In this document: in pieces, positions 1,644 through 10,695 of the stretch
Numbering within the stretch: position 1 is the stretch's first letter
Layout: every line of letters starts with the position of its first letter
Assembly: GCA_023132075.1 (NCBI GenBank)
Contig: JAGLYT010000026.1
Coordinates: 1-10,695, forward strand
Origin: JAGLHV01 sp023132075 [NCBI: bacterium]
GTDB lineage: Bacteria; CBDUZB01; JAGLHV01
Direction of reading: 5' to 3'
Length of the DNA stretch: 10,695 nucleotides
The notes under the pieces: model-generated
Told to the model about the DNA's origin: nothing
The model's database searches: none
Seen by the model: only the letters and a program-made list of their open reading frames with translations
Translations under genes and position numbers: made by a program

Positions 1644-3209
1644 ATGAAAAAGATCATAAAAAAACAAAAACAGGCAAAAGAAACGAACCGGACATTAATA
1701 TGGAAGGGGTTTTTTATTGCATCCCTTATGTTTTATATATTTCAGAATGTATTTTGTTTTGCCGGTGAAGGTGCCGGGACAACAGCTTTCAACTTTTTAA
1801 AAATAGGTGCGGGAGCACGGCCGGTTGGTATGGGAGAAGCATATAGTGCATTAGCAGATGATATTAACGCTATTTATTGGAATCCGGCAGGATTAGGACA
1901 TATAACCGAGCGTGAGGTTACCGCCTCTTATCTGAGTTATGTAGCAGGCATTAATTCAGGATATTTTGGTTATGCGTTACCTTTAGTGAAGGGTAGTTTA
2001 GGCGTAGGTGTCGTTTATTTGGATTATGGACAGATACAGGAAACTACACTGGATGACCCTGATGGGGTAAATTTGGGTTGTTACCGTCCCTATGACCTGG
2101 CAGTAATAGCTGCGTATGGTTGTGAGGTTGCCGGAGGGTTAAATGTAGGTATAAACATGAAGGGAGTACATGAAGATATACAGGGTTATACCGCCAATGC
2201 CATTGCTTTTGACATAGGGACATTGTATGATTTGCCGGCAAATGATTTAACTCTGGCCTGTTCAGTAAAAAATTTTGGATTACAAACAAAAGCTTTTATT
2301 AAAGAGAAACACGATTTACCCTTAATGCTTGATATTGGTTTGGGATATAGTTTGTTAGCTGATGCTCTTAAAATAGGTTTAAATTTATATCAACCACAAG
2401 GAGGGGATTTTAATTTTAATATCGGAGGGGAATATTGCTGGAATAAATTAGTTTCTCTTCGAATGGGGTACAAAAGTATTGGGAAGGATCTGAAAACAGG
2501 TTCGGATAAGGATAGTTTTACCGGGTTATCTGTTGGGTTAGGGGTAAATATGAAAATGTATCAGTTAGATTATGCTTTTGTTCCGTTTAATGAATTAGGA
2601 AATACTCACCGCTTGTCTTTTGGATTAAAATGGGGAAAAAATGATGTAGCGTTTGGAAAAGAAAAGCGAAAGGTCAGTAAACAAAAGGTTAGTAAAAAGA
2701 AAAAAGTTGTTAAAAAACAGAAGATTAATAAGAAGAAGAGAACTGTTAAAAAAGAAACGGTTAGTAAAAAGAAAAAAATTGTTAGAAAAAAGAAGATTAA
2801 TAAGAAGAAAGAATCTGTTAAAAAACAAATGGTTAGTAAAAAGAAAAAAGTTGTCAAAAAACAGAAAATAAAAAACAAAAAAGTGAGCAAAAAAAATAAG
2901 AACAAAAAAGAAATAGGGGTAGAATTTTATCAAAATGGTAAGAAATATGCTAAACAAAAGAAATACCAAATAGCAATTAAAGAGTATAGAGGGGCATTAA
3001 AACGAGGGCACAAAACTGCTGAATTATATGCCGGCATGGGGTATTGTTACTATAAATTAGGAAATAAGAAAGCAGCAAAAAGTTTATATAAGCGGGCATT
3101 AGCTATGGATCCGGATAATAAAAGAATAAAGAAAAACCTGAAAAAAATGAGTAAAAAAGGAAAAATAAAAAATAATAAAAAAGTGGTTGACAAATGGCGA
3201 AACCTGTGA
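1644..3209 (+). CDS. PorV/PorQ-family outer-membrane barrel fused to Lys-rich repeat and TPR domain
   Basis: The 521-residue protein begins with a long positive n-region and a hydrophobic signal segment (about 21-40, cleavage probably after CFA). Residues about 45-332 resemble the PorV/PorQ (UPF0164) family of FadL-like outer-membrane barrels: the hallmark FLKIGAGARPVGMGEAYSA is followed by WNPAGL, and the region ends in a barrel-type strand (HRLSFGLKWG). In Bacteroidota, PorV is the outer-membrane shuttle that receives type IX secretion substrates. Residues about 337-423 are a highly basic linker dominated by Lys, containing three copies of a 24-residue unit from Val349. Residues about 424-490 form two TPR motifs (AIKEYRGALKRG, then AAKSLYKRALAMDPDN). 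The linker and TPR would lie in the periplasm after the last strand. The start is supported only by a weak TAAGG. Proteins on both sides carry sorting-type tails, consistent with a cargo-export role (inference). Confidence 0.82.
   Translation: MKKIIKKQKQAKETNRTLIWKGFFIASLMFYIFQNVFCFAGEGAGTTAFNFLKIGAGARPVGMGEAYSALADDINAIYWNPAGLGHITEREVTASYLSYVAGINSGYFGYALPLVKGSLGVGVVYLDYGQIQETTLDDPDGVNLGCYRPYDLAVIAAYGCEVAGGLNVGINMKGVHEDIQGYTANAIAFDIGTLYDLPANDLTLACSVKNFGLQTKAFIKEKHDLPLMLDIGLGYSLLADALKIGLNLYQPQGGDFNFNIGGEYCWNKLVSLRMGYKSIGKDLKTGSDKDSFTGLSVGLGVNMKMYQLDYAFVPFNELGNTHRLSFGLKWGKNDVAFGKEKRKVSKQKVSKKKKVVKKQKINKKKRTVKKETVSKKKKIVRKKKINKKKESVKKQMVSKKKKVVKKQKIKNKKVSKKNKNKKEIGVEFYQNGKKYAKQKKYQIAIKEYRGALKRGHKTAELYAGMGYCYYKLGNKKAAKSLYKRALAMDPDNKRIKKNLKKMSKKGKIKNNKKVVDKWRNL
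2688..2903 (+). repeat. 72-bp in-frame tandem repeat encoding lysine-rich 24-residue units
   Basis: Three copies start at 2688, 2760 and 2832, each with GTTAGTAAAAAG (Val-Ser-Lys-Lys). The encoded units run VSKKKKVVKKQKINKKK, VSKKKKIVRKKKINKKK and VSKKKKVVKKQKIKNKK, the third with a diverged end. The DNA is almost pure A/G with T at regular places. The period is a multiple of three, so copy-number change would keep the frame. Confidence 0.75.
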
Positions 3210-3215
3210 TATATT
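3187..3215 (+). promoter_or_regulatory. Consensus sigma70-type promoter for the riboswitch transcript
   Basis: TTGACA at 3187-3192 and TATATT at 3210-3215 are separated by exactly 17 bases. The -35 is a perfect match and the -10 a five-of-six match. The promoter overlaps the last codons of the PorV-like gene (stop at 3207-3209), so the start point near 3222 gives a leader of about 205 bases that contains the riboswitch and terminator. Confidence 0.7.
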
Positions 3216-3261: not shown

Positions 3262-3348
3262 TTTGCTTGATAAAAGCAAAGTACAAGAAATTGTATGACG
3301 CAAAACCACGGGGTTCGTTTTTGACGAGTTAGCCGGGTTGCCAAGCTG
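3262..3348 (+). promoter_or_regulatory. GEMM-I (c-di-GMP-I class) riboswitch aptamer, possible cGAMP subtype
   Basis: The class hallmarks are in order: GCAAA (3276-3280); a stem capped by a GAAA tetraloop (TACAA-GAAA-TTGTA, 3282-3295); GACGCAAA (3297-3304); ACCACGGGG; a second stem (GTTCGT/ACGAGT around TTTTG); and AGCCGGGTTGCC (3331-3342). A closing P1 helix is formed by GCTTG (3265-3269) and CAAGC (3342-3346). GEMM-I RNAs bind c-di-GMP, and a subclass with A instead of G at Vc2 position 20 binds 3',3'-cGAMP. Here the base before GCAAA, which I equate with position 20, is A (3275). The aptamer precedes a protein with MshEN-type motifs, a plausible target for this signal. Confidence 0.85.
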
Positions 3349-3370
3349 GAGAGGCAATCGGGCTTTTTTT
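3331..3370 (+). terminator. Riboswitch expression-platform intrinsic terminator
   Basis: AGCCGGGTTGCC (3331-3342) pairs with GGCAATCGGGCT (3353-3364) around a ten-base loop, with one G-G mismatch and one G-T pair, and runs into seven T's (3364-3370). The 5' arm is also the 3' strand of the aptamer P2/P1 region, so the two folds exclude each other. Ligand binding is therefore predicted to prevent termination and switch the downstream gene on. Confidence 0.82.
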
Positions 3371-3427
3371 ATAGGTGAATGTTTGTCTGCAAGGGGGGGT
3401 ATTTCATAGTGGTAAAAGGAGGATAAA

Positions 3428-3679
3428 ATGTCAAGATTAGGTGAAATGTTAAGGAAAGAGAAAGTAATAACAAAAAAACAATTAGAAGCAGTGCTTGAAG
3501 AGCAAAAAAAGAAAAAAAATCATAAGCGGCTGGGTAAAATGTTAGTTTCCAGTGGATACACTGATAAGGAAGTAATTATCAGCCTTTTGGATCAACAGCA
3601 AAATAGTCCTTATTGGGAAATATTTAAAAAGACAGGTTCTCTGGAAGCATATTTAAAAATTAAAAAGATTAAATTATAA
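3428..3679 (+). CDS. Stand-alone MshEN/GspE-N-like protein (putative cyclic-dinucleotide receptor)
   Basis: The 83-residue protein has no signal peptide and is probably cytosolic. It carries two half-motifs of the MshEN (T2SSE_N) kind. The first is RLGEML at 3-8, then V13-I14, L19 and LEEQ at 23-26. The second is RLGKML at 34-39, then G43, V49-I50 and LLDQQ at 53-57. In MshE-type ATPases of pili and type II secretion, two such 24-residue motifs together bind c-di-GMP. The spacer here is only seven residues, and the Gly usual at position 10 of the first motif is Lys12. The ATPase domain that normally follows is absent: residues 58-83 are a short basic tail (SPYWEIFKKTG...). The ATG has a strong AAGGAGG five bases upstream. 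The gene is the only one between the riboswitch terminator and the terminator at 3784, so it appears monocistronic. Action as a receptor or adaptor for a pilus/secretion ATPase is inference. Confidence 0.75.
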   Translation: MSRLGEMLRKEKVITKKQLEAVLEEQKKKKNHKRLGKMLVSSGYTDKEVIISLLDQQQNSPYWEIFKKTGSLEAYLKIKKIKL

Positions 3680-3783: not shown

Positions 3784-3816
3784 AATCCGCCATTATTTCA
3801 TGGCGGATTTTTTATT
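3784..3816 (+). terminator. Strong intrinsic terminator
   Basis: AATCCGCCAT (3784-3793) and ATGGCGGATT (3800-3809) form a perfect ten-base-pair stem with a six-base loop, followed by TTTTTATTT. It ends the riboswitch-controlled transcript and separates it from the next transcription unit. Confidence 0.85.
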
Positions 3817-3916: not shown

Positions 3917-5467
3917 ATGATCAGGAAAATAATCGCAATGGTGGTTGTTTTCTTTATTTTTTTGGGGTGTTCTCAAGCAATAGCTATTGTTGTTGATGGA
4001 GATGCCAGTGACTGGAGCGTTATAGCAGCTACAGACACAGATATAAATTCTGCAATAGTACGTAATGGAGAGTGGATTTGGAGAGATACTACTAACGATG
4101 AAAGAAGAAATACCACCTATTATGAAACAGGCGGGGTGACTCCTTCCTGTGATATTACCGAGGTGCGTATTACTGCGGATACGAATGCGTTATATTTTCT
4201 GGTAAAGTTTAAAGACTTAGATTTGGGAACAACAGGGGTTTCCTATCCTTTTGTTCAGGTAGCTATAGATTATGATAAATCCGGTGGTTTGAATTTGTTG
4301 CCCATATCGGGGGATGAAAATGATTTAGCCCAAATAAGTGATAATGCCGGTTGGGAATATTTAGTTTATGCTTACCAGAATAATGTTGCTGTGCTTGTTG
4401 ATGACATAATACCTGGTGGTTCAACGGTTGGTTCGGTTAATTATAGTCAATACACATCTACTAATAGTATTACCGGCCCTTATTTTATGGAATTTAGCGT
4501 GCCTTTTACTGACCCGGGTTTGGGTAGTTCAACACATTATTTAGATAAAACAGTTACTTTTAGCCTTGTTTGTTTTTTTCATTCTGCCGCCTGGACAGGG
4601 GGAGCCTCACACGAAGTAAGGCCTTTTGAGACGGGTTTTTCCCATATTATTGATTGTATTTCCTTGATTGATAATCCTCAAACTACCGGGGAGAGTGACG
4701 GTTCTAGCCATAGCGGTACAGCAGGAACATGGGAGGAGGTAGGTGATAATATCGTTGATACATATTTTGATATTAAATTTGATGCCGTAGGAAATGTGGT
4801 AGCTAACAGTACACCGACAATTACCGTACCTGTTTTTGAAGTAGATGATGTTCAAAATAATAATGAAGTTGTGGTAGAAGGCCGAGGCCCTGTTTTTTCC
4901 TGGTCATGGGTATTTGCAGATGCTGATACAGGGGATATTCAAAAAGCTGCTCAGATACAAATAGACGTGGATACTACAACTGCAAATGGGAATATCTGGA
5001 CATGTTCTCCGTTATTAACAGCAACTAGCGTACAATATACAGGACTGGATGCTTTACAAACCGATCAAACATATTGTTGGCGCGCAAGGGTAATGGATAA
5101 TCATGGTACATGGAGTGATTGGACTGATGCCGGAACGTTTACTACTATAAAACAAGCCCGGCCGTTTAATATTGCTAAAAATAACCTTTCTATTGACTGG
5201 AATAATCCGTTTAATCCGGCAAAAGGAGATTATACTAAAATACGATATGTAACAGAAAAGGATGAACGTGTAGTAATTAGAATTTATGATATGAGCGGAA
5301 AATTAATAAAAACTTTAGTAGATAGTGACAAATTAAGTGATGTCGTTTATACCCAAATATGGGATGGCCGGAATGAAGATGGTAAACTGGCAGCCAGCGG
5401 GGTATATTTTGTTAATATAAAAGCCGGTAATTTTACTAAAACGGAAAAAATAGTAGTAATAAAGTAA
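3917..5467 (+). CDS. Secreted protein with CBM9/DOMON-like, FN3-like and C-terminal sorting-type domains
   Basis: The 516-residue protein starts with a signal peptide (residues 1-23), cleaved probably after AIA. Residues about 25-250 resemble CBM9/DOMON-like beta-sandwich modules, opening with VDGDASDW and continuing with EVRITADTNALYFLVKFKD and VQVAIDYDKSGG; such modules bind carbohydrate or act as surface/redox modules. Residues about 300-412 look like a fibronectin type III-like domain (QTYCWRARVMDNHGTWSDW). Residues about 425-516 are a T9SS type A sorting/FlgD-Ig-like tail (WNNPFNPAKGDYTKIRYV, RIYDMSGKLIKTL, WDGRNEDGKLAASGVYFV). The ATG has AAAGGGGG just upstream. No enzyme active site is visible, so the ligand and role are unknown; export to the cell surface is inferred from the tail and the PorV-like barrel nearby. 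Confidence 0.8.
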   Translation: MIRKIIAMVVVFFIFLGCSQAIAIVVDGDASDWSVIAATDTDINSAIVRNGEWIWRDTTNDERRNTTYYETGGVTPSCDITEVRITADTNALYFLVKFKDLDLGTTGVSYPFVQVAIDYDKSGGLNLLPISGDENDLAQISDNAGWEYLVYAYQNNVAVLVDDIIPGGSTVGSVNYSQYTSTNSITGPYFMEFSVPFTDPGLGSSTHYLDKTVTFSLVCFFHSAAWTGGASHEVRPFETGFSHIIDCISLIDNPQTTGESDGSSHSGTAGTWEEVGDNIVDTYFDIKFDAVGNVVANSTPTITVPVFEVDDVQNNNEVVVEGRGPVFSWSWVFADADTGDIQKAAQIQIDVDTTTANGNIWTCSPLLTATSVQYTGLDALQTDQTYCWRARVMDNHGTWSDWTDAGTFTTIKQARPFNIAKNNLSIDWNNPFNPAKGDYTKIRYVTEKDERVVIRIYDMSGKLIKTLVDSDKLSDVVYTQIWDGRNEDGKLAASGVYFVNIKAGNFTKTEKIVVIK

Positions 5468-5504: not shown

Positions 5505-6053
5505 ATGTCTTTTCGTCGATTAAAGGAAAAAATAAAATCAGTGGAAAAAGGGAAATTGTTATTTCGTATTATATGTGTGCTAATCTTGGGTTTTTTTATA
5601 ATAACTGTTTTTAAAGTAGTTTGGTTTCTAAAAAACCGACAGGCGATAAGAGAGTATGTGGAAAAAGGGAAAGAGCAAAAACAATTGATAGTTGCTCAAA
5701 TGCAGGAAGGAAAAACGGGGAAAAATAAGGGAAAAGATGTTCTTGGCAAGGATATTCCGGGGATAACCCGTTATATAGGAATGGTTAGAATTTTCTATGT
5801 AGGGGATGAAAATTCTCGAATGGTAGTTTATGAAGTAAAGGCTGATAAAGCGGAAGTGTTGAAATTTTACAGAAAAGAAATGAGTTCCGGAGGATGGAAA
5901 AAAGATGAAAAACTTTCTCTAAAAAAGAAGGCACTTACTTACGTTAAAGGAGATAGAGAAGTTCAGATAATGGTTAATAGTGGTTATTTTAGCAAAGATA
6001 AAATTACCACGGTTACTTTTTTAAGCCAAAATATAGAAAGACAACAGGAATGA
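5505..6053 (+). CDS. Single-pass membrane protein of the Tad locus, function unknown
   Basis: The 182-residue protein has a basic N-terminus, one transmembrane segment at about 20-42 (LFRIICVLILGFFIITVFKV) and a charged, Lys-rich stretch. The C-terminal domain (about 85-180) shows the pattern DIPGITRYIGMVRIFY, VVYEVKADKAEVLKFYRKEM and GGWKKDE. I recall similar patterns (a Pro-Gly-containing opening followed by a FYRxEM...GW block) in uncharacterised exported or lipoprotein domains, but I cannot name the family with certainty. The domain is probably on the outer face of the inner membrane. An AAGGAG precedes the ATG, and the stop overlaps the start of the Flp pilin gene (ATGA), indicating translational coupling and a shared operon. 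A role in pilus assembly is inferred from position only. Confidence 0.7.
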   Translation: MSFRRLKEKIKSVEKGKLLFRIICVLILGFFIITVFKVVWFLKNRQAIREYVEKGKEQKQLIVAQMQEGKTGKNKGKDVLGKDIPGITRYIGMVRIFYVGDENSRMVVYEVKADKAEVLKFYRKEMSSGGWKKDEKLSLKKKALTYVKGDREVQIMVNSGYFSKDKITTVTFLSQNIERQQE

Positions 6054-6220
6054 AAAAAAAAATAAATCGTCAGGGACAGGCAACAACGGAGTATATTTTA
6101 TTAAGTCTGGTTTTAATTGTGGCGGCTATGGGTGTGAATAAACTTTTTGCAAAATCGATTGCAAAATATTTTAATCATGTAGCTTCTCTGAGAACAGGTG
6201 GGTTGGGAATGTTACCTTGA
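6050..6220 (+). CDS. flp: Flp-family type IVb pilin (first copy, 56 residues)
   Basis: The small gene starts at the ATG overlapping the preceding stop (ATGA) and encodes 56 residues. The N-terminus is basic (MKKKINRQG), followed by QATTEYILLSLVLIVAAMGV. This is a class III (Flp-type) prepilin signal: cleavage is expected after Gly9, leaving Glu at position 5 of the mature protein and a hydrophobic helix that forms the pilus core. The C-terminal part (KLFAKSIAKYFNHVASLR) is amphipathic, as in Flp pilins. Length and layout match Flp/Fap pilins (about 50-80 residues). It could be a major or minor pilin. A second, different Flp-like pilin is encoded at 8472. Confidence 0.8.
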   Translation: MKKKINRQGQATTEYILLSLVLIVAAMGVNKLFAKSIAKYFNHVASLRTGGLGMLP

Positions 6221-6237
6221 GAGTGAGATTGTTTTAA

Positions 6238-6789
6238 ATGTGCAATGGTCAATCAGGACAGGCAATGTTAGAGTCGATGGTTGTTGTTTTAATTGTATGT
6301 GTCTTTATTTTTGGTTTGATGCAGTTGTCTTTGATTGCGACTACCTATATGTCCGGTTATGATGCTGTGCAATCGGCAATACGTTCGAGAATAGTAAATG
6401 GGGGAGGGGGAAATCCCGAGGAAGTTTCTTGTTGGGTAGGACGGGTTGTATTATTAGGTACACAATTTAAAAAACTTGTTTTATTAGGCCCGGGAGGGAT
6501 TTATCCCCTGGTTGATTTTTTTTATAAAGATGTAGTTAACAATAAAAAAGATTATGGGAATAAGCCTATAAAAATTGTAACTGTCAAATTGACTTATCTG
6601 GAAAAGTTAATCTTTGCTTTTCTTTTTCGTCCTGCCAATTCTTCTACGCAAGGTACATTTTTTTATGATAGATATAATACAAGTTCACTTCCTGCCTTTA
6701 TGACTCCGAGAGTTACTTTTTCAAGAATGGTTATTTCTCCGGACGAAAAATTTTACTATAAAGCATATCCCGGAGCACATAATGATTAA
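6238..6789 (+). CDS. TadE-like minor pseudopilin
   Basis: The 183-residue protein has a very short leader and a class III-like processing site: Gly7 is followed by QAMLE, placing Glu at mature position 5. A hydrophobic helix follows (SMVVVLIVCVFIFGLMQLSLIA). This is the TadE/TadF arrangement; TadE-type proteins are processed by the prepilin peptidase and act in Flp pilus assembly. The rest (about 55-183) is not recognisable and includes a glycine run (NGGGGN) and a second hydrophobic stretch (LIFAFLF). The ATG is preceded by a weak GAGAGTGAG. It lies 17 bases after the Flp gene and overlaps the next gene by eight bases. Confidence 0.72.
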   Translation: MCNGQSGQAMLESMVVVLIVCVFIFGLMQLSLIATTYMSGYDAVQSAIRSRIVNGGGGNPEEVSCWVGRVVLLGTQFKKLVLLGPGGIYPLVDFFYKDVVNNKKDYGNKPIKIVTVKLTYLEKLIFAFLFRPANSSTQGTFFYDRYNTSSLPAFMTPRVTFSRMVISPDEKFYYKAYPGAHND

Positions 6790-7657
6790 ATCGAAATTGA
6801 AAAACAATAACGGCCAAACATTGCCTTTTATGTGTTTGACAGTGTTGGCTTTAGTGATGTTTTGGATGCTGGTAGTGAATATGGGGGTAATGCTCAGGGA
6901 TAGAATTATTGTTCAAAATGCGGCTGATTGTGCGGCACAAACAGCTGCGTGTTATCGCGCGAGGGCTCTGAATTTGGCAGGTCTTTACAATTCTATTTTG
7001 GGAAGTTATATTGTTTATGAAGGGTCTAAAATTTTGCCTCCCCAAGGAGCATGGATTCCTTTTAATAATCCTTATTATACTTATCAACTTACTAAAAACT
7101 TAAATCGGATGATAAGCGGGATTATTCGTTCTTACGGAGGAGGATGGGCTTATTTGAAGGCAAATGAAGTGGCTAAAAAATCGGGTGCGGATGGGATAAA
7201 ATCTCTTCCGATTCCAGGGATGTATTCCCTGGGGCTTAAAGTCGATAAAGTTAAGATTAGATTTTGGAGTACAGCAGTGGTTTACGGTTTACCGGCTCCT
7301 GCCCCTCCTTTTTTTACAAAGAGAGTGAATACCTGGTATTATTTAAAAGATAAATATGGGCCCAGGAAGAATATTGCTATAGCATATAAGCGTCCTCAGT
7401 CAAATTTTTTTCCTATGGGGAAAAATTTCTTTGGTATAACGGAAATTCCTGAAATACTGGCAATAGCTGCAGCTCGTCCGTATAATGCAAAAGGTTCAAT
7501 GTTTCCAAAAAAGAAAACAAAATGGGGATTGAAAGTTATTTTTAAATGGCTTCAAGCTGTTTCCGGTGGATGGGAAGCGCATCTTGTACCGGTAGGAGAT
7601 ATTTCTTTGATTCCGGGGTTGCCCGGAATACCTGCGGGTAAAGCAATAAAACATTGA
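6782..7657 (+). CDS. TadG-like protein (Tad domain, putative Flp pilus-assembly protein)
   Basis: The 291-residue protein opens with KNNNGQTLPFM and a transmembrane segment (about 16-36), followed by MLRDRIIVQNAADCAAQTAACYRARALN. This is the signature of the Pfam Tad/TadG-like N-terminal domain, in which a Gly-Gln precedes the helix and an xxQNAADAAA block follows. Unlike the neighbouring pilins there is no Glu at position 5 after the Gly (Phe16 instead), so prepilin processing is doubtful. Residues about 75-291 are not recognisable, with many aromatic and Pro-Gly residues. TadG proteins are thought to sit in the periplasm attached to the inner membrane. The start overlaps the preceding gene by eight bases, suggesting coupling. 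Confidence 0.72.
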   Translation: MIKSKLKNNNGQTLPFMCLTVLALVMFWMLVVNMGVMLRDRIIVQNAADCAAQTAACYRARALNLAGLYNSILGSYIVYEGSKILPPQGAWIPFNNPYYTYQLTKNLNRMISGIIRSYGGGWAYLKANEVAKKSGADGIKSLPIPGMYSLGLKVDKVKIRFWSTAVVYGLPAPAPPFFTKRVNTWYYLKDKYGPRKNIAIAYKRPQSNFFPMGKNFFGITEIPEILAIAAARPYNAKGSMFPKKKTKWGLKVIFKWLQAVSGGWEAHLVPVGDISLIPGLPGIPAGKAIKH

Positions 7658-7711
7658 ATTACATACTTTTTTTTAAGAATTTTTAAGTTGTGAAAAGGTA
7701 TTATAAATTAA

Positions 7712-8161
7712 ATGCATAAGAAAATTGGGTTTAAAAATAAAAAAGGGCAGGCATTATTGGAAACACTTTTTATTGTTCCTATTGTTGCCGCTTTAATAGC
7801 CGGAATCTGGTTTTTTGCGGCTATTTTTATTACCCAGATACGTTTAAATATGGCCTGTCGGCATGGGGTGTTTCTTATTGTTCATGCCAATTATAATACA
7901 GAACAGGTGATGGGAGAGGTAAAAGATTTTTTGAGGGAAAATAAATTGGCCGAGAGTAAGATAAGGATAAATCATTCCGATATAGACACAAGTTGCGGTA
8001 GGAGGCCGGCCAGGGTCAGTGTAAAATATGAATTAAAGCCGCCGGTATTATTGAGGAAAATTCCCGGGTTTCCTGATCCGATGGTGTTGAAAGGATGTTG
8101 TGAGTGTGCCAATGATACGTGGATGTTTGGTATTCCCGGAAGTAATTTGTCCCATTCATAA
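7712..8161 (+). CDS. TadE-like minor pseudopilin with Cys cluster
   Basis: The 149-residue protein has a basic leader (MHKKIGFKNKKG), a class III-like processing site after Gly12 with Glu at mature position 5 (QALLE), and a hydrophobic helix (TLFIVPIVAALIAGIWFFAAIFI), the layout of the TadE-like family. The next block, RLNMACRHGVFLIVH, matches the usual region after the TadE helix. The C-terminal part carries Cys95 and a CCEC cluster at 129-132, which is unusual. No strong ribosome-binding site is visible (AAAAGG about 14 bases upstream), so the start is supported mainly by the leader. It is the last gene before a 310-base non-coding stretch. Confidence 0.75.
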   Translation: MHKKIGFKNKKGQALLETLFIVPIVAALIAGIWFFAAIFITQIRLNMACRHGVFLIVHANYNTEQVMGEVKDFLRENKLAESKIRINHSDIDTSCGRRPARVSVKYELKPPVLLRKIPGFPDPMVLKGCCECANDTWMFGIPGSNLSHS

Positions 8162-8279
8162 AAAGTTTCATTGATACTGAGCACTTTGCTTTGTTCAGCA
8201 TAAACTCCCTTGAAGGGAATCGAAGGATCTCGGGTTGATTTGGATTTGCGGATTTTCATTTTGTGTTTTTATATTGTCC

Positions 8280-8297
8280 GCCAATTAGTAAAGCGGA
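8280..8297 (+). repeat. 18-bp dispersed element, copy 1
   Basis: GCCAATTAGTAAAGCGGA is repeated at 8390-8407 as GCCAGTCAGTAAGGCGGG. The two copies match at 14 of 18 bases and all four differences are transitions. Both have partly complementary ends (CCGCC before or within, GCGG after), so each could form a short hairpin. Confidence 0.45.
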
Positions 8298-8389
8298 TCT
8301 TTAGTCTTTTGTTTGTAACTTTGCGCCTTTGTGCCTGTTTTTTTCTTTGTCCTTTGTTTTGAATTTAGGATTTTGAATTTTGCTTGTTT

Positions 8390-8407
8390 GCCAGTCAGTA
8401 AGGCGGG
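8390..8407 (+). repeat. 18-bp dispersed element, copy 2
   Basis: GCCAGTCAGTAAGGCGGG is the second copy, 110 bp after the first. It lies shortly before the GGATTTCGTATTT run and the start of the second Flp pilin gene. Confidence 0.45.
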
Positions 8408-8471
8408 AATTTGTTTAGGATTTCGTATTTCGGATTTAGTATTTATTTTAAAAAAAGGGGGGTGAAATAAG

Positions 8472-8639
8472 ATGATAAATTTAAGAAAAAATCGGCAGGG
8501 ACAGGGATTGACTGAATATGTTTTACTGGTGCTTTTGATAGCAATTGCCGTTTTTGGGGCAATAAAAATTTTTGGCGGGAAGGTTAAGGGTGGATTTGAA
8601 AAAGCCTCTGAGAAAATTGAGGAAGCACAAGAGGAATAA
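8472..8639 (+). CDS. flp: Flp-family type IVb pilin (second copy, 55 residues)
   Basis: The 55-residue protein starts MINLRKNRQG, then QGLTEYVLLVLLIAIAVFGA. The Flp processing motif is textbook: cleavage after Gly10 leaves Glu at mature position 5, followed by Tyr and a hydrophobic helix. The remainder (KIFGGKVKGGFEKASEKIEE) is charged and helical. A strong AGGGGGGTG lies about eight bases before the ATG. The gene is 20 bases upstream of cpaB, the classic position of the major pilin gene in Tad loci, so this copy is the better candidate for the main subunit. It is closer to the Flp consensus (GLTEY) than the copy at 6050 (ATTEY). Confidence 0.87.
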   Translation: MINLRKNRQGQGLTEYVLLVLLIAIAVFGAIKIFGGKVKGGFEKASEKIEEAQEE

Positions 8640-8659
8640 GGGGGAAGAGGGGGAGGATA

Positions 8660-9502
8660 GTGAAAAATAAAAAATTGTTAATAGCATCATTAGGTATTGC
8701 TTTTATAACCGTAGTCTTGGTAGGAGGATATCTTAATAGTTTGGAAGAAGCATATTTGGCCGGAGGTAAAAAAGTAGAAGTTTTAGTGGCTAAAGATTAT
8801 ATCCCTTCTGCTACTTTTATTGGAAAAGAAATGGTAAAAGTGGCTAAAATTCCTTTACAGTTTCGACAGCCGGGAGCTCTTACATCGTTGGAAGAGCTTA
8901 TGGGCAAAAGAGGAAGAAATATTTATTCAACGATTGTTCCCATTATGATTGGGGAACAGATCGTTGCTACTAAACTTTCTTCTCTTGAAAAAGGAACAAG
9001 ATTGTCTTTTGTTATTCCGGAAGGAAAAGGGGCAATTTCTTTAGGTGTGGATAAAGTTAGTGGTGTATCGGGGTTGATTAAAGCCGGTGACCGGGTTAAT
9101 TTAATTACTACTTTTGAATACGAAAAGAAGAACAAATTGGAAGCAAAAACAATTACTTTAATGCAGAATTTATTGGTTTTAGCAGTGAACAAACAACTTG
9201 TCGGGACAATTATTCCTAAAAGAAAAAAAGGAAAATACGAAACCGCTGTTCCGGAAGAAGAATTGCGCACGGTAACTTTAAGTGTAACTCCCCAGGAAGC
9301 GGAAAGAATTATTTTTGCCGCTCATCAGGGAGAATTGATGCTTTATTTAAAAGCACAGGGAAATATAGAAACGGTCCCTGTTTGCGGAACAAATTTATCT
9401 TCTTTGCTGAACGAGAAAAATATAACCCCTTCATCCCGAAATAAATTGGATATGCCTCCTATCATTAAAGGGATTAAAGAAATGATGCCCAGCGAGTACT
9501 AA
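8660..9502 (+). CDS. cpaB: CpaB/RcpC family Flp pilus assembly protein
   Basis: The 280-residue protein has an N-terminal membrane anchor (about 5-25, LLIASLGIAFITVVLVGGYL). An SAF domain follows at about 38-105: VEVLVAKDYIPSATFIGKEMV, then a Pro-Gly-Ala block and GRNIYSTIVPIMIGEQIVATKL. The RcpC/CpaB C-terminal domain (about 112-240) includes GKGAISLGVDKVSGVSGLIK, AGDRVNLI and LSVTPQEAERIIFAA. The length is typical of the family. CpaB sits in the periplasm, anchored in the inner membrane, and supports secretin assembly or function in Tad pili. The start is GTG, chosen because GGGAGGAT stands just before it and the anchor begins directly. It lies between the second Flp gene and the secretin gene, the usual cpaB-cpaC order. 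Confidence 0.93.
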   Translation: MKNKKLLIASLGIAFITVVLVGGYLNSLEEAYLAGGKKVEVLVAKDYIPSATFIGKEMVKVAKIPLQFRQPGALTSLEELMGKRGRNIYSTIVPIMIGEQIVATKLSSLEKGTRLSFVIPEGKGAISLGVDKVSGVSGLIKAGDRVNLITTFEYEKKNKLEAKTITLMQNLLVLAVNKQLVGTIIPKRKKGKYETAVPEEELRTVTLSVTPQEAERIIFAAHQGELMLYLKAQGNIETVPVCGTNLSSLLNEKNITPSSRNKLDMPPIIKGIKEMMPSEY

Positions 9503-9523
9503 TAAAGACTCAAGGAGTAAATA

Positions 9524-10501
9524 ATGTGGAACAGAATGATATTTAGAAAATTAATAGGTGTTTTTTTCTTTTTATTTTTGTTGTCGGGTTACATTTCCGC
9601 AAAAGACAAAGTTTTAAAGCTGATGGTCGGAGAATCCAGAGTCATCAACATTGCCTATTCTATAAAAAAGATAGCTATAGGCAATCCTATGGTGGCAGAT
9701 GTTACTATGGTTTCTAAAAAAGAAATATTAATTAACGGGACAGGTAGCGGGACTACTTCTTTACTGGTGTGGAATAATAATGGTGGACGGGAAAAATATT
9801 ATTTACAGGTATCACACTCTTTACTTCCTGAACCATTGATTCAACTGCAGGTTCAGATAATAGAGGTGAAGGTGGGTTCACTTAAAAAAATGGGTATTCA
9901 ATGGGCGGATAATATCTCTTTCGAAGAGGAAACCATTCCCGGTATTTTTGATTTAGGAACTATTGCTCGAATGACCAAACTTACGACTACTTTGAATATG
10001 TTACTGCAGGAAGGGGAAGCACGCATTTTAGCTAAGCCCAATCTGGTATCTGTAAGTGGTGGAAAAGCTGATTTTCATGTAGGAGGGGAGATCCCTTTTA
10101 TTGTTCCTCAGGATGAAGGTAGAACGAGTGTAGAATGGAAAAAATATGGAATAACTCTGGAAATCAGTCCTACCGGTGATGAGGCAAAGAAAATTATTGC
10201 TACGGGAATCACGGTTAGTTTAAGTTTGTTGGATTATGACAACGCTGTAAAAATGGAGGGGTATTTAATCCCGGCCATTACCGAAAGAAGAGCAAGTACT
10301 CAGGTACAAGTTCCCGCCGGATCTACTATTGTAATTGCCGGATTAAAACAAACGATAGAACAGAAAAGTGACCAAAAGGTGCCTATTTTAGGGGACATTC
10401 CTCTATTAAAATATTTTTTTAGAGTGCGGGATTCAGATAAAGGGGACACGGAAGTAACGGTGTTTATTACTCCGACTTTTATAAAATCAAATAAAAAGTG
10501 A
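9524..10501 (+). CDS. cpaC: CpaC/RcpA-type secretin of the Tad pilus
   Basis: The 325-residue protein has a signal peptide (1-26, cleavage probably after YISA). A pilus-formation N-terminal domain spans about 28-96 (VGESRVINIAYSIKKIAIGNP, VADVTMVSKKEILINGTGSGTTSLLVW). The secretin core lies at about 105-320: LIQLQVQIIEVK, a transmembrane-strand region, ILAKPNLVSVSGGKADFHVGG, and the signature VPILGDIPLLKYFF at 286-299, ending VTVFITPTFI. It forms the outer-membrane channel through which the pilus passes. It is shorter than typical CpaC proteins because no BON domain is visible between the N-terminal domain and the core. AAGGAG stands six bases before the ATG. Confidence 0.93.
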   Translation: MWNRMIFRKLIGVFFFLFLLSGYISAKDKVLKLMVGESRVINIAYSIKKIAIGNPMVADVTMVSKKEILINGTGSGTTSLLVWNNNGGREKYYLQVSHSLLPEPLIQLQVQIIEVKVGSLKKMGIQWADNISFEEETIPGIFDLGTIARMTKLTTTLNMLLQEGEARILAKPNLVSVSGGKADFHVGGEIPFIVPQDEGRTSVEWKKYGITLEISPTGDEAKKIIATGITVSLSLLDYDNAVKMEGYLIPAITERRASTQVQVPAGSTIVIAGLKQTIEQKSDQKVPILGDIPLLKYFFRVRDSDKGDTEVTVFITPTFIKSNKK

Positions 10502-10511
10502 GAAAATATTT

Positions 10512-10695
10512 ATGTCGGGAAAAATTATTTCTATTTTAGATATAGGAAGCCGGACAAGTGCTTTACTTACAGCCGCTTTATCTGTCAGTTTAAAGCAGGA
10601 AACCAAAAGAAAGATTGCTTTATTTGATTTCAGTATTTTTCCGGTTAAAGGGAAAATGAAAATTCTATTTAATCTTTCCCGGGAAAAGAATTTTA
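10512..10695 (+). CDS. CpaE/TadZ-like ParA/MinD-family protein, 3' truncated by window edge
   Basis: Sixty-one residues are visible, beginning MSGKIISILDIGSRTSALLTAALSVSL by frame. The beta-strand, loop, helix and second-strand pattern (KIISIL, loop, helix, RKIALFDFSIF) matches the start of the CpaE/TadZ ATPase domain, where one expects a KGGxGKT/S loop and a LxDxD strand. The Gly-Lys-Ser/Thr core is missing here: the loop reads DIGSRTSA. TadZ-type proteins localise the Tad machine to a cell pole or site, and some have atypical Walker A boxes. The gene follows the secretin by ten bases, the usual position of cpaE/tadZ. The ribosome-binding site is weak (AAGTGAG spanning the preceding stop). 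CpaE usually has an N-terminal receiver-like domain; here the ATPase-like fold starts at once. Confidence 0.65.
   Translation, partial: MSGKIISILDIGSRTSALLTAALSVSLKQETKRKIALFDFSIFPVKGKMKILFNLSREKNF

Follow-up and report, generated by a model that had tools for sequence, protein, structure and literature searches.

Can a receptor domain of the MshEN type work apart from a motor, and does a cyclic dinucleotide control the supply of a receptor for itself or for a sister messenger? This question is raised by a small gene on a bacterial contig of 10,695 nucleotides (JAGLYT010000026.1, assembly GCA_023132075.1), which was analyzed over its whole length and is called the window here. A preliminary description of this DNA proposed that a stand-alone MshEN-like protein is transcribed alone under a cyclic-dinucleotide riboswitch beside a Tad pilus locus. 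The following features were located in the window.

3187-3215, plus strand: sigma-70-like promoter, TTGACA-17-TATATT, 11 of 12 consensus positions matched, TG preceding the second hexamer
3266-3346, plus strand: GEMM-I (c-di-GMP-I clan) riboswitch aptamer, Rfam RF03168, 70.2 bits (gathering score 65.9)
3331-3371, plus strand: expression platform with intrinsic terminator, stem 3331-3364, loop of 10, then a U run
3417-3422, plus strand: Shine-Dalgarno sequence AGGAGG
3428-3679, plus strand: open reading frame of 83 aa with ATG start, encoding the MshEN_N protein (motif 1, residues 3-26; 7-residue spacer; motif 2, residues 34-57; tail, residues 58-83)
3784-3809, plus strand: intrinsic terminator after the gene (z -5.4; the same stem also scores on the minus strand)
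5505-10695, plus strand: Tad/Flp pilus locus with Flp-like pilins, TadE/TadG-like proteins, CpaB/RcpC, the CpaC secretin and the start of an ATPase

The small gene encodes a single MshEN_N domain

Judged from its sequence, the 83-aa protein is essentially one MshEN_N domain. It matches NF053729, the NCBIfam model of an MshE-related c-di-GMP-binding domain, over residues 3-57 with 52 bits (curated cut-off 38, E 4.4e-14), and in the search of the whole genome the small gene scores 51.9 bits. Pfam gave nothing above its cut-off for this protein. Among relatives in the PDB, found by sequence, PilB chains are the best (E 1e-7), and VcMshE (5htl) was found with E 3.5e-5. Compared by HHalign, the small family (2 rows) matches 27 MshEN domains of long proteins with a probability of 99.05 and E 2.2e-18. 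As these 27 had been retrieved by a search with the same protein, the support is not independent.

For each motif, six contact residues (R, L, G, L, L, Q) were chosen by our own reading of PMC5013675. In the small protein these places are occupied by R3, L4, G5, L19, L23 and Q26 and by R34, L35, G36, I50, L54 and Q57. Eleven of the 12 are identical, the exception being an exchange of L to I at residue 50. The place of the turn glycine is taken by K12 in motif 1 and by G43 in motif 2, and the spacer between the motifs has 7 residues, compared to the 5 typical of VcMshEN. Both features vary in other members: the spacer has 7 residues in Geobacter PilB (5tsg) and is longer in two further loci (L025 and L046), several aligned MshEN rows carry other residues at the glycine place, and the family model demands neither the glycine nor a 5-residue spacer.

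The known MshEN domains of MshE, PilB, PilF and NfrB (5htl, 5tsg, 8pfa) share the two 24-residue RLG...L...L..Q motifs with the small protein. In contrast to them, the small protein has neither an ATPase nor a glycosyltransferase attached and no room for the MshEN_C subdomain, in the place of which it carries its 26-residue tail. Residues 63-81 of this tail (window 3614-3676) resemble YqzL weakly, with 16-17 bits below the Pfam cut-off of 27, which was not taken as homology. The preliminary description was thus right in assigning both half-motifs to a protein without an ATPase, given the profile score over its cut-off and the 11 matching contact residues.

As regards the four-helix fold of MshEN domains, a single-sequence AlphaFold2 model of low confidence (pLDDT 58.9) shows helices at residues 3-10, 16-28, 34-41 and 46-56. 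The three best Foldseek matches of this low-confidence model are c-di-GMP-bound GSPII-B domains of PilF, at non-significant E values of 1.5-2.5. PMC5013675 reports that isolated VcMshEN_N (residues 1-62) binds c-di-GMP at 0.35 uM, so that a lone domain can suffice as a receptor. From such close homologues we infer that the small protein most likely has a cyclic dinucleotide as its ligand, probably c-di-GMP.

Gene and riboswitch are kept in a second species

Three genomes of the genus were compared, that of the window (G000) and two others (G001 and G002). The second species is represented by a locus on record JAUVLC010000099.1 (L100), apparently from the same assembly as G002. The title of this record, "Clostridia bacterium", is doubtful, because a secretin and PorV-like proteins of the outer membrane are encoded in the genus. 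The order of this locus is that of the window: PorV-TPR gene, riboswitch, small MshEN gene, secreted-protein gene and Tad genes. Parts and order are shown by the sequence of both species. The small protein is 95% identical between them, and 77 of the 81 aptamer bases agree. For the small gene, dN/dS is 0.089 (dS 0.28, dN 0.025), and a ratio of about 0.09 indicates that the frame is under protein-level constraint and did not arise by chance. Tail residues 58-83 are identical in both species despite the dS of 0.28. The Shine-Dalgarno sequence is kept as well. The arms of the attenuator stem and its U run are identical, with diverged loop and flanks, and the stem of the terminator at 3784-3809 is preserved with one C-G pair changed to U-G.

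A loss of the gene in G001 was considered and rejected. Contig C168 stops at the equivalent of window position 2012 and contig C37 resumes at 4721, leaving an assembly gap at the gene, so this genome cannot be judged. The pair of gene and riboswitch is therefore present in two of the two genus genomes in which the region is assembled, all within one genus; beyond the genus itself, the comparison set of 60 relatives contains no member of its family or order. The synteny with the Tad locus, named in the preliminary description as a point to be checked in relatives, is conserved in both assessable genomes.

Relatives were also sought more widely. A full-length profile (E 1e-6) gave 78 matches in 66 of 386 genomes. 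The two genus copies lie in short frames (84 and 87 aa) and the other 76 in frames of at least 190 aa, so no further short-frame relative was found in this set, where divergent small MshEN proteins could be missed owing to the query of two near-identical rows and the E limit. NF053729 matched 241 of 290 genomes, and short proteins are not countable among the strongest matches listed. In the scan of genome contigs the second species alone was confirmed among the matches listed. A plasmid search gave one match, in Geobacillus, annotated as glycosyltransferase. In phages no relative of the small protein was detected at E 0.01, and in viral contigs scanned for PilB relatives 4 stretches matched, none of which was confirmed.

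The transcription unit and its riboswitch

The promoter-like site overlaps the end of the upstream gene and is identical in the second species, an identity that may partly reflect the overlapping coding end. In the scanned region 4 promoter-like sites were found against 2.3 expected by shuffling, and the promoter call is therefore suggestive only. The attenuator hairpin (-17.8 kcal/mol, z -2.36) takes up the 3' strand of the aptamer including C3341. It is missing from a terminator scan with a loop limit of 8, its own loop having 10 bases. Folded by energy on its own, the aptamer does not stand out (z -0.66), and the minimum-energy fold of the whole leader is the terminator and not the GEMM fold (z -1.77). 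With RF03168 above its gathering score, a promoter-like site and the terminator at 3784-3809, the predicted layout agrees with a lone transcript under a cyclic-dinucleotide riboswitch, as had been proposed.

The nearest described riboswitches seem to be those of the GEMM-Ib type, upstream of G. metallireducens pilM and G. sulfurreducens pgcA. They share with the window the aptamer core, an A at position 20 and a terminator that takes the aptamer 3' strand. The differences are that the best Rfam model of the window aptamer is c-di-GMP-I-UAU, although its bases read A-A-C, that it precedes a receptor domain and not pilus or cytochrome genes, and that its organism was not placed near Geobacter in our analysis. 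The letters UAU in the model name presumably stand for the three ligand-contact bases. For the pilM riboswitch, PMC9262584 describes a switch of the ON type, in which the terminator captures C75, the base that pairs with the ligand. By analogy with this terminator layout, we infer that the window riboswitch would be switched ON by its ligand.

On balance we consider it probable that a GEMM-I riboswitch acting as a transcriptional ON switch governs a transcript of one gene, which encodes a soluble stand-alone MshEN_N receptor. In the unbound state, the closing strand of the aptamer, with C3341 as the base expected to pair with the ligand, would fold into the intrinsic terminator. With ligand, the aptamer would keep this strand and RNA polymerase would read through. 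The product would be an MshEN domain without a motor, its most likely ligand being a cyclic dinucleotide and probably c-di-GMP. It may then serve as a small adaptor that works in trans on the machinery of surface filaments, for example the motor of a Tad or type IV pilus.

The ligand of the riboswitch

The ligand-contact bases of the window aptamer are A3275, A3302 and C3341, corresponding to positions 20, 47 and 92. These positions were set by alignment to the family consensus together with the Vc2 numbering. In the three genus genomes (G000, G001 and G002) 12, 12 and 19 RF03168 sites were found, 43 in total, 42 of them with a fetched locus. This regulon is large for genomes of 1.8-2.6 Mb, and some of the sites lie close together (e.g., 4005-4084 and 5900-5983 on contig C336 of G000). 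Position 20 is G in 38 of the 42 sites and A in 4. An A is found in both copies of the riboswitch studied here: the window site is the sole one with A20 among the 12 of its own genome, and its counterpart the sole one among the 18 read in G002. The other two A20 sites belong to G001, and both have counterparts with G20 before related genes in other genomes. One precedes a subtilase gene (L054, with G20 in L005 and L062), the other a gene for a prepilin-like protein (L063, with G20 in L078 and L079). This suggests that ligand specificity flips within one genus.

PMC6456294 reports that in Geobacter the choice of 3',3'-cGAMP depends on an A at position 20, and that its exchange for G switches Gmet_0970 from cGAMP to c-di-GMP. 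From this one base a cGAMP-type ligand would be expected for the window RNA. MshEN domains in turn prefer c-di-GMP, VcMshEN binding it at 0.5 uM compared to 330 uM for cGAMP, which is about 660-fold weaker (PMC5013675). Given A20 in the aptamer, RNA and protein may thus read different signals.

A possible source of cGAMP was sought among the GGDEF domains of the genus; DncV-like CD-NTases are another kind of cGAMP synthase. The three genomes hold 7, 8 and 9 GGDEF hits, 24 in total, and the specificity residue (position of PleD D344) is readable in 23 of them, with 18 Asp and 5 Asn; one protein (L098) does not contain that stretch. No Hypr GGDEF domain with Ser or Thr was found among the 23 readable ones in the three genomes, of which that of the window is 86.7% complete. 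A CHASE2-GGDEF protein in which Asn replaces the guanine-reading Asp (GHKTGN) while the GGDEF motif is intact occurs in each of the three genomes (L020 in G000, L090 in G001, L093 in G002), the CHASE2 domain being shown for L020. From its sequence this variant is a candidate promiscuous cyclase. Asn at the specificity residue was also seen in L085 and in the degenerate L096.

The preliminary description proposed a feed-forward circuit with a receptor for the same or a related signal. Its two parts, the riboswitch and the receptor domain, are supported; A20 makes the sameness of the signal uncertain, and a circuit that crosses two signals is about as likely. It is quite possible that the RNA reads c-di-GMP in the cell despite A20, so that c-di-GMP raises its own receptor in a feed-forward manner. 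This would fit the G20 of 38 of the 42 genus sites, the lack of a Ser/Thr Hypr enzyme among the 23 of 24 GGDEF domains that are readable, and the G20 counterparts of the G001 sites, which indicate that position 20 drifts or that specificity is mixed. A Geobacter riboswitch sensitive to both ligands has also been reported (PMC6456294). Against this reading, A20 was kept in both species at this very site, and an A-to-G exchange at position 20 is what turns Gmet_0970 from cGAMP to c-di-GMP.

The other circuit, in which a cGAMP-sensing RNA induces a c-di-GMP-binding protein and one messenger sets the sensitivity to, or the buffering of, the other, is conceivable, if rather doubtful. It is in line with A20, A47 and C92 in both copies and with the preference of VcMshEN for c-di-GMP, and the Asn-variant CHASE2-GGDEF protein of all three genomes would offer a candidate promiscuous cyclase. 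Against it, the Hypr enzymes described in PMC9140294 carry Ser or Thr and not Asn at the specificity residue, and the genome of the window is incomplete at the level given above.

Possible partners of the small protein

The Tad locus downstream of the small gene, which the preliminary description had named, is confirmed by CpaB (TIGR03177, 130 bits, cut-off 71) and the secretin (PF00263, 128 bits, cut-off 27.5). All TadE/TadG-like and Flp-like matches in the locus are below their cut-offs; Flp_Fap gave 19.5 bits (cut-off 32.2) for 8472-8636 and no match for 6050-6217. The small gene is set apart from this locus by the terminator and by about 1.8 kb of DNA that includes a gene for a secreted protein. 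With this terminator in between, adjacency to the Tad genes is weak evidence for an action on the pilus.

Of the ATPase at the end of the window only the start is present, recognized by its likeness to two proteins that are whole in G002 (L170) and G001 (L171). These match T2SSE over its cut-off and the TadA family TIGR03819 with 313 bits, under its cut-off of 373, and have an N-terminal half of about 340-370 residues. In another Tad-type ATPase of the window genome (L169), the N-terminal half matches a ParA/MinD-type domain over the cut-off. On account of this match we name the Tad-type ATPases TadZ-TadA fusions, which they apparently are, L170, L171 and a further one (L173) by reading. The last 52 bases of the window (10644-10695) overlap with positions 1-52 of contig C2 of G000 within the ATPase gene at 88% identity. 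Contig C2, which starts inside this gene, probably continues the Tad locus, and the deviation is perhaps due to strain variation at the assembly break.

NF053729 has three matches in the window genome, namely the small gene, PilB (both over the cut-off) and a DUF4388 protein (below it); in G002 the model has a fourth match. PilB has its own MshEN domain (63 bits) and so needs no extra sensor. The whole-genome search of G000 gave no NF053729 match in the Tad-type ATPases, nor is the model among the best 25 NCBIfam matches listed for L169, L170, L171 and L173, which leaves room for a sensor in trans. A detachable sensor for the Tad motor is an attractive conjecture. PilB, another partner or a function as a sink are alternatives, and partner and physiological role alike are conjecture. 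That all of this holds at once, with a cGAMP riboswitch inducing a detachable c-di-GMP sensor for a TadA-type fusion ATPase without its own sensor, outside Geobacter and its relatives, is unlikely.

Another reading, that a pilus ATPase recently lost its motor and left the small protein behind without a function of its own, is very improbable and largely refuted: its tail begins with NSPYWEI, comparable to the NIPYVSL-type sequence of several ATPases, but the gene has a dN/dS of 0.09, its own promoter-like site, riboswitch, Shine-Dalgarno sequence and terminator, and an unchanged tail in two species.

Comparison with known systems

Some riboswitch-controlled type IV pilus operons include an MshEN-bearing PilB. 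In these operons a cyclic dinucleotide induces pilus genes and with them, in principle, an MshEN protein, which is the point in common with the probable circuit of the window; the difference is that MshEN is part of the motor there and stands alone here. PilZ, of about 120 aa, and FimX, of about 700 aa, are described in PMC11656802 as separate cytoplasmic proteins of the c-di-GMP pathway which bind the motor PilB. They have other folds, PilZ itself does not bind c-di-GMP, and the partner of the small protein is conjectural.

Literature searches on stand-alone, small or single-domain MshEN proteins, on MshEN with a riboswitch and on feed-forward circuits of riboswitch and PilZ showed no such arrangement among the papers listed; the one paper retrieved on stand-alone or small MshEN proteins concerns a small MshEN-like domain inside NfrB. 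This agrees with the earlier view that no system of this exact form has been described. The anatomy of the locus is well supported and the circuit is plausible; its parts are known, and their arrangement is without precedent in the searches made.

The locus offers a compact, testable case in which one messenger would control how much receptor is made for itself or for a sister messenger, and in which an RNA receptor and a protein receptor share one predicted transcript of about 0.6 kb. If this is true, MshEN domains can work as free subunits, and Tad pili, whose motor lacks such a domain in the genes read, would have a route to read cyclic dinucleotides. If the RNA is selective for cGAMP, signalling by this messenger would extend to a lineage in which no recognized Hypr synthase was found, and the Asn-variant CHASE2-GGDEF protein would become a candidate enzyme.

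Other GEMM sites and neighbouring genes

Downstream of the 11 other GEMM sites of the window genome, 7 proteins were analyzed, 3 with a Pfam match and 4 without. The matches are 2 DUF7305 proteins, prepilin-like by reading, and 1 subtilase. Flp-like pilins, below the Pfam cut-off, follow another GEMM site of this genome. With prepilin-like proteins, a subtilase and Flp-like pilins behind GEMM sites, cyclic dinucleotides seem to control surface structures in this organism.

The gene upstream of the riboswitch (window 1644-3209; 468-2045 in L100) encodes a PorV-like protein that carries a TPR at its C-terminus and has a linker of lysine-rich repeats, which is not the same in the two species. Near it, the products of 3917-5467 and 2-1198 have Por_Secre_tail C-termini, which resemble type IX sorting signals. 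Together with the PorV-like protein, these sequences hint at a T9SS-like export route.
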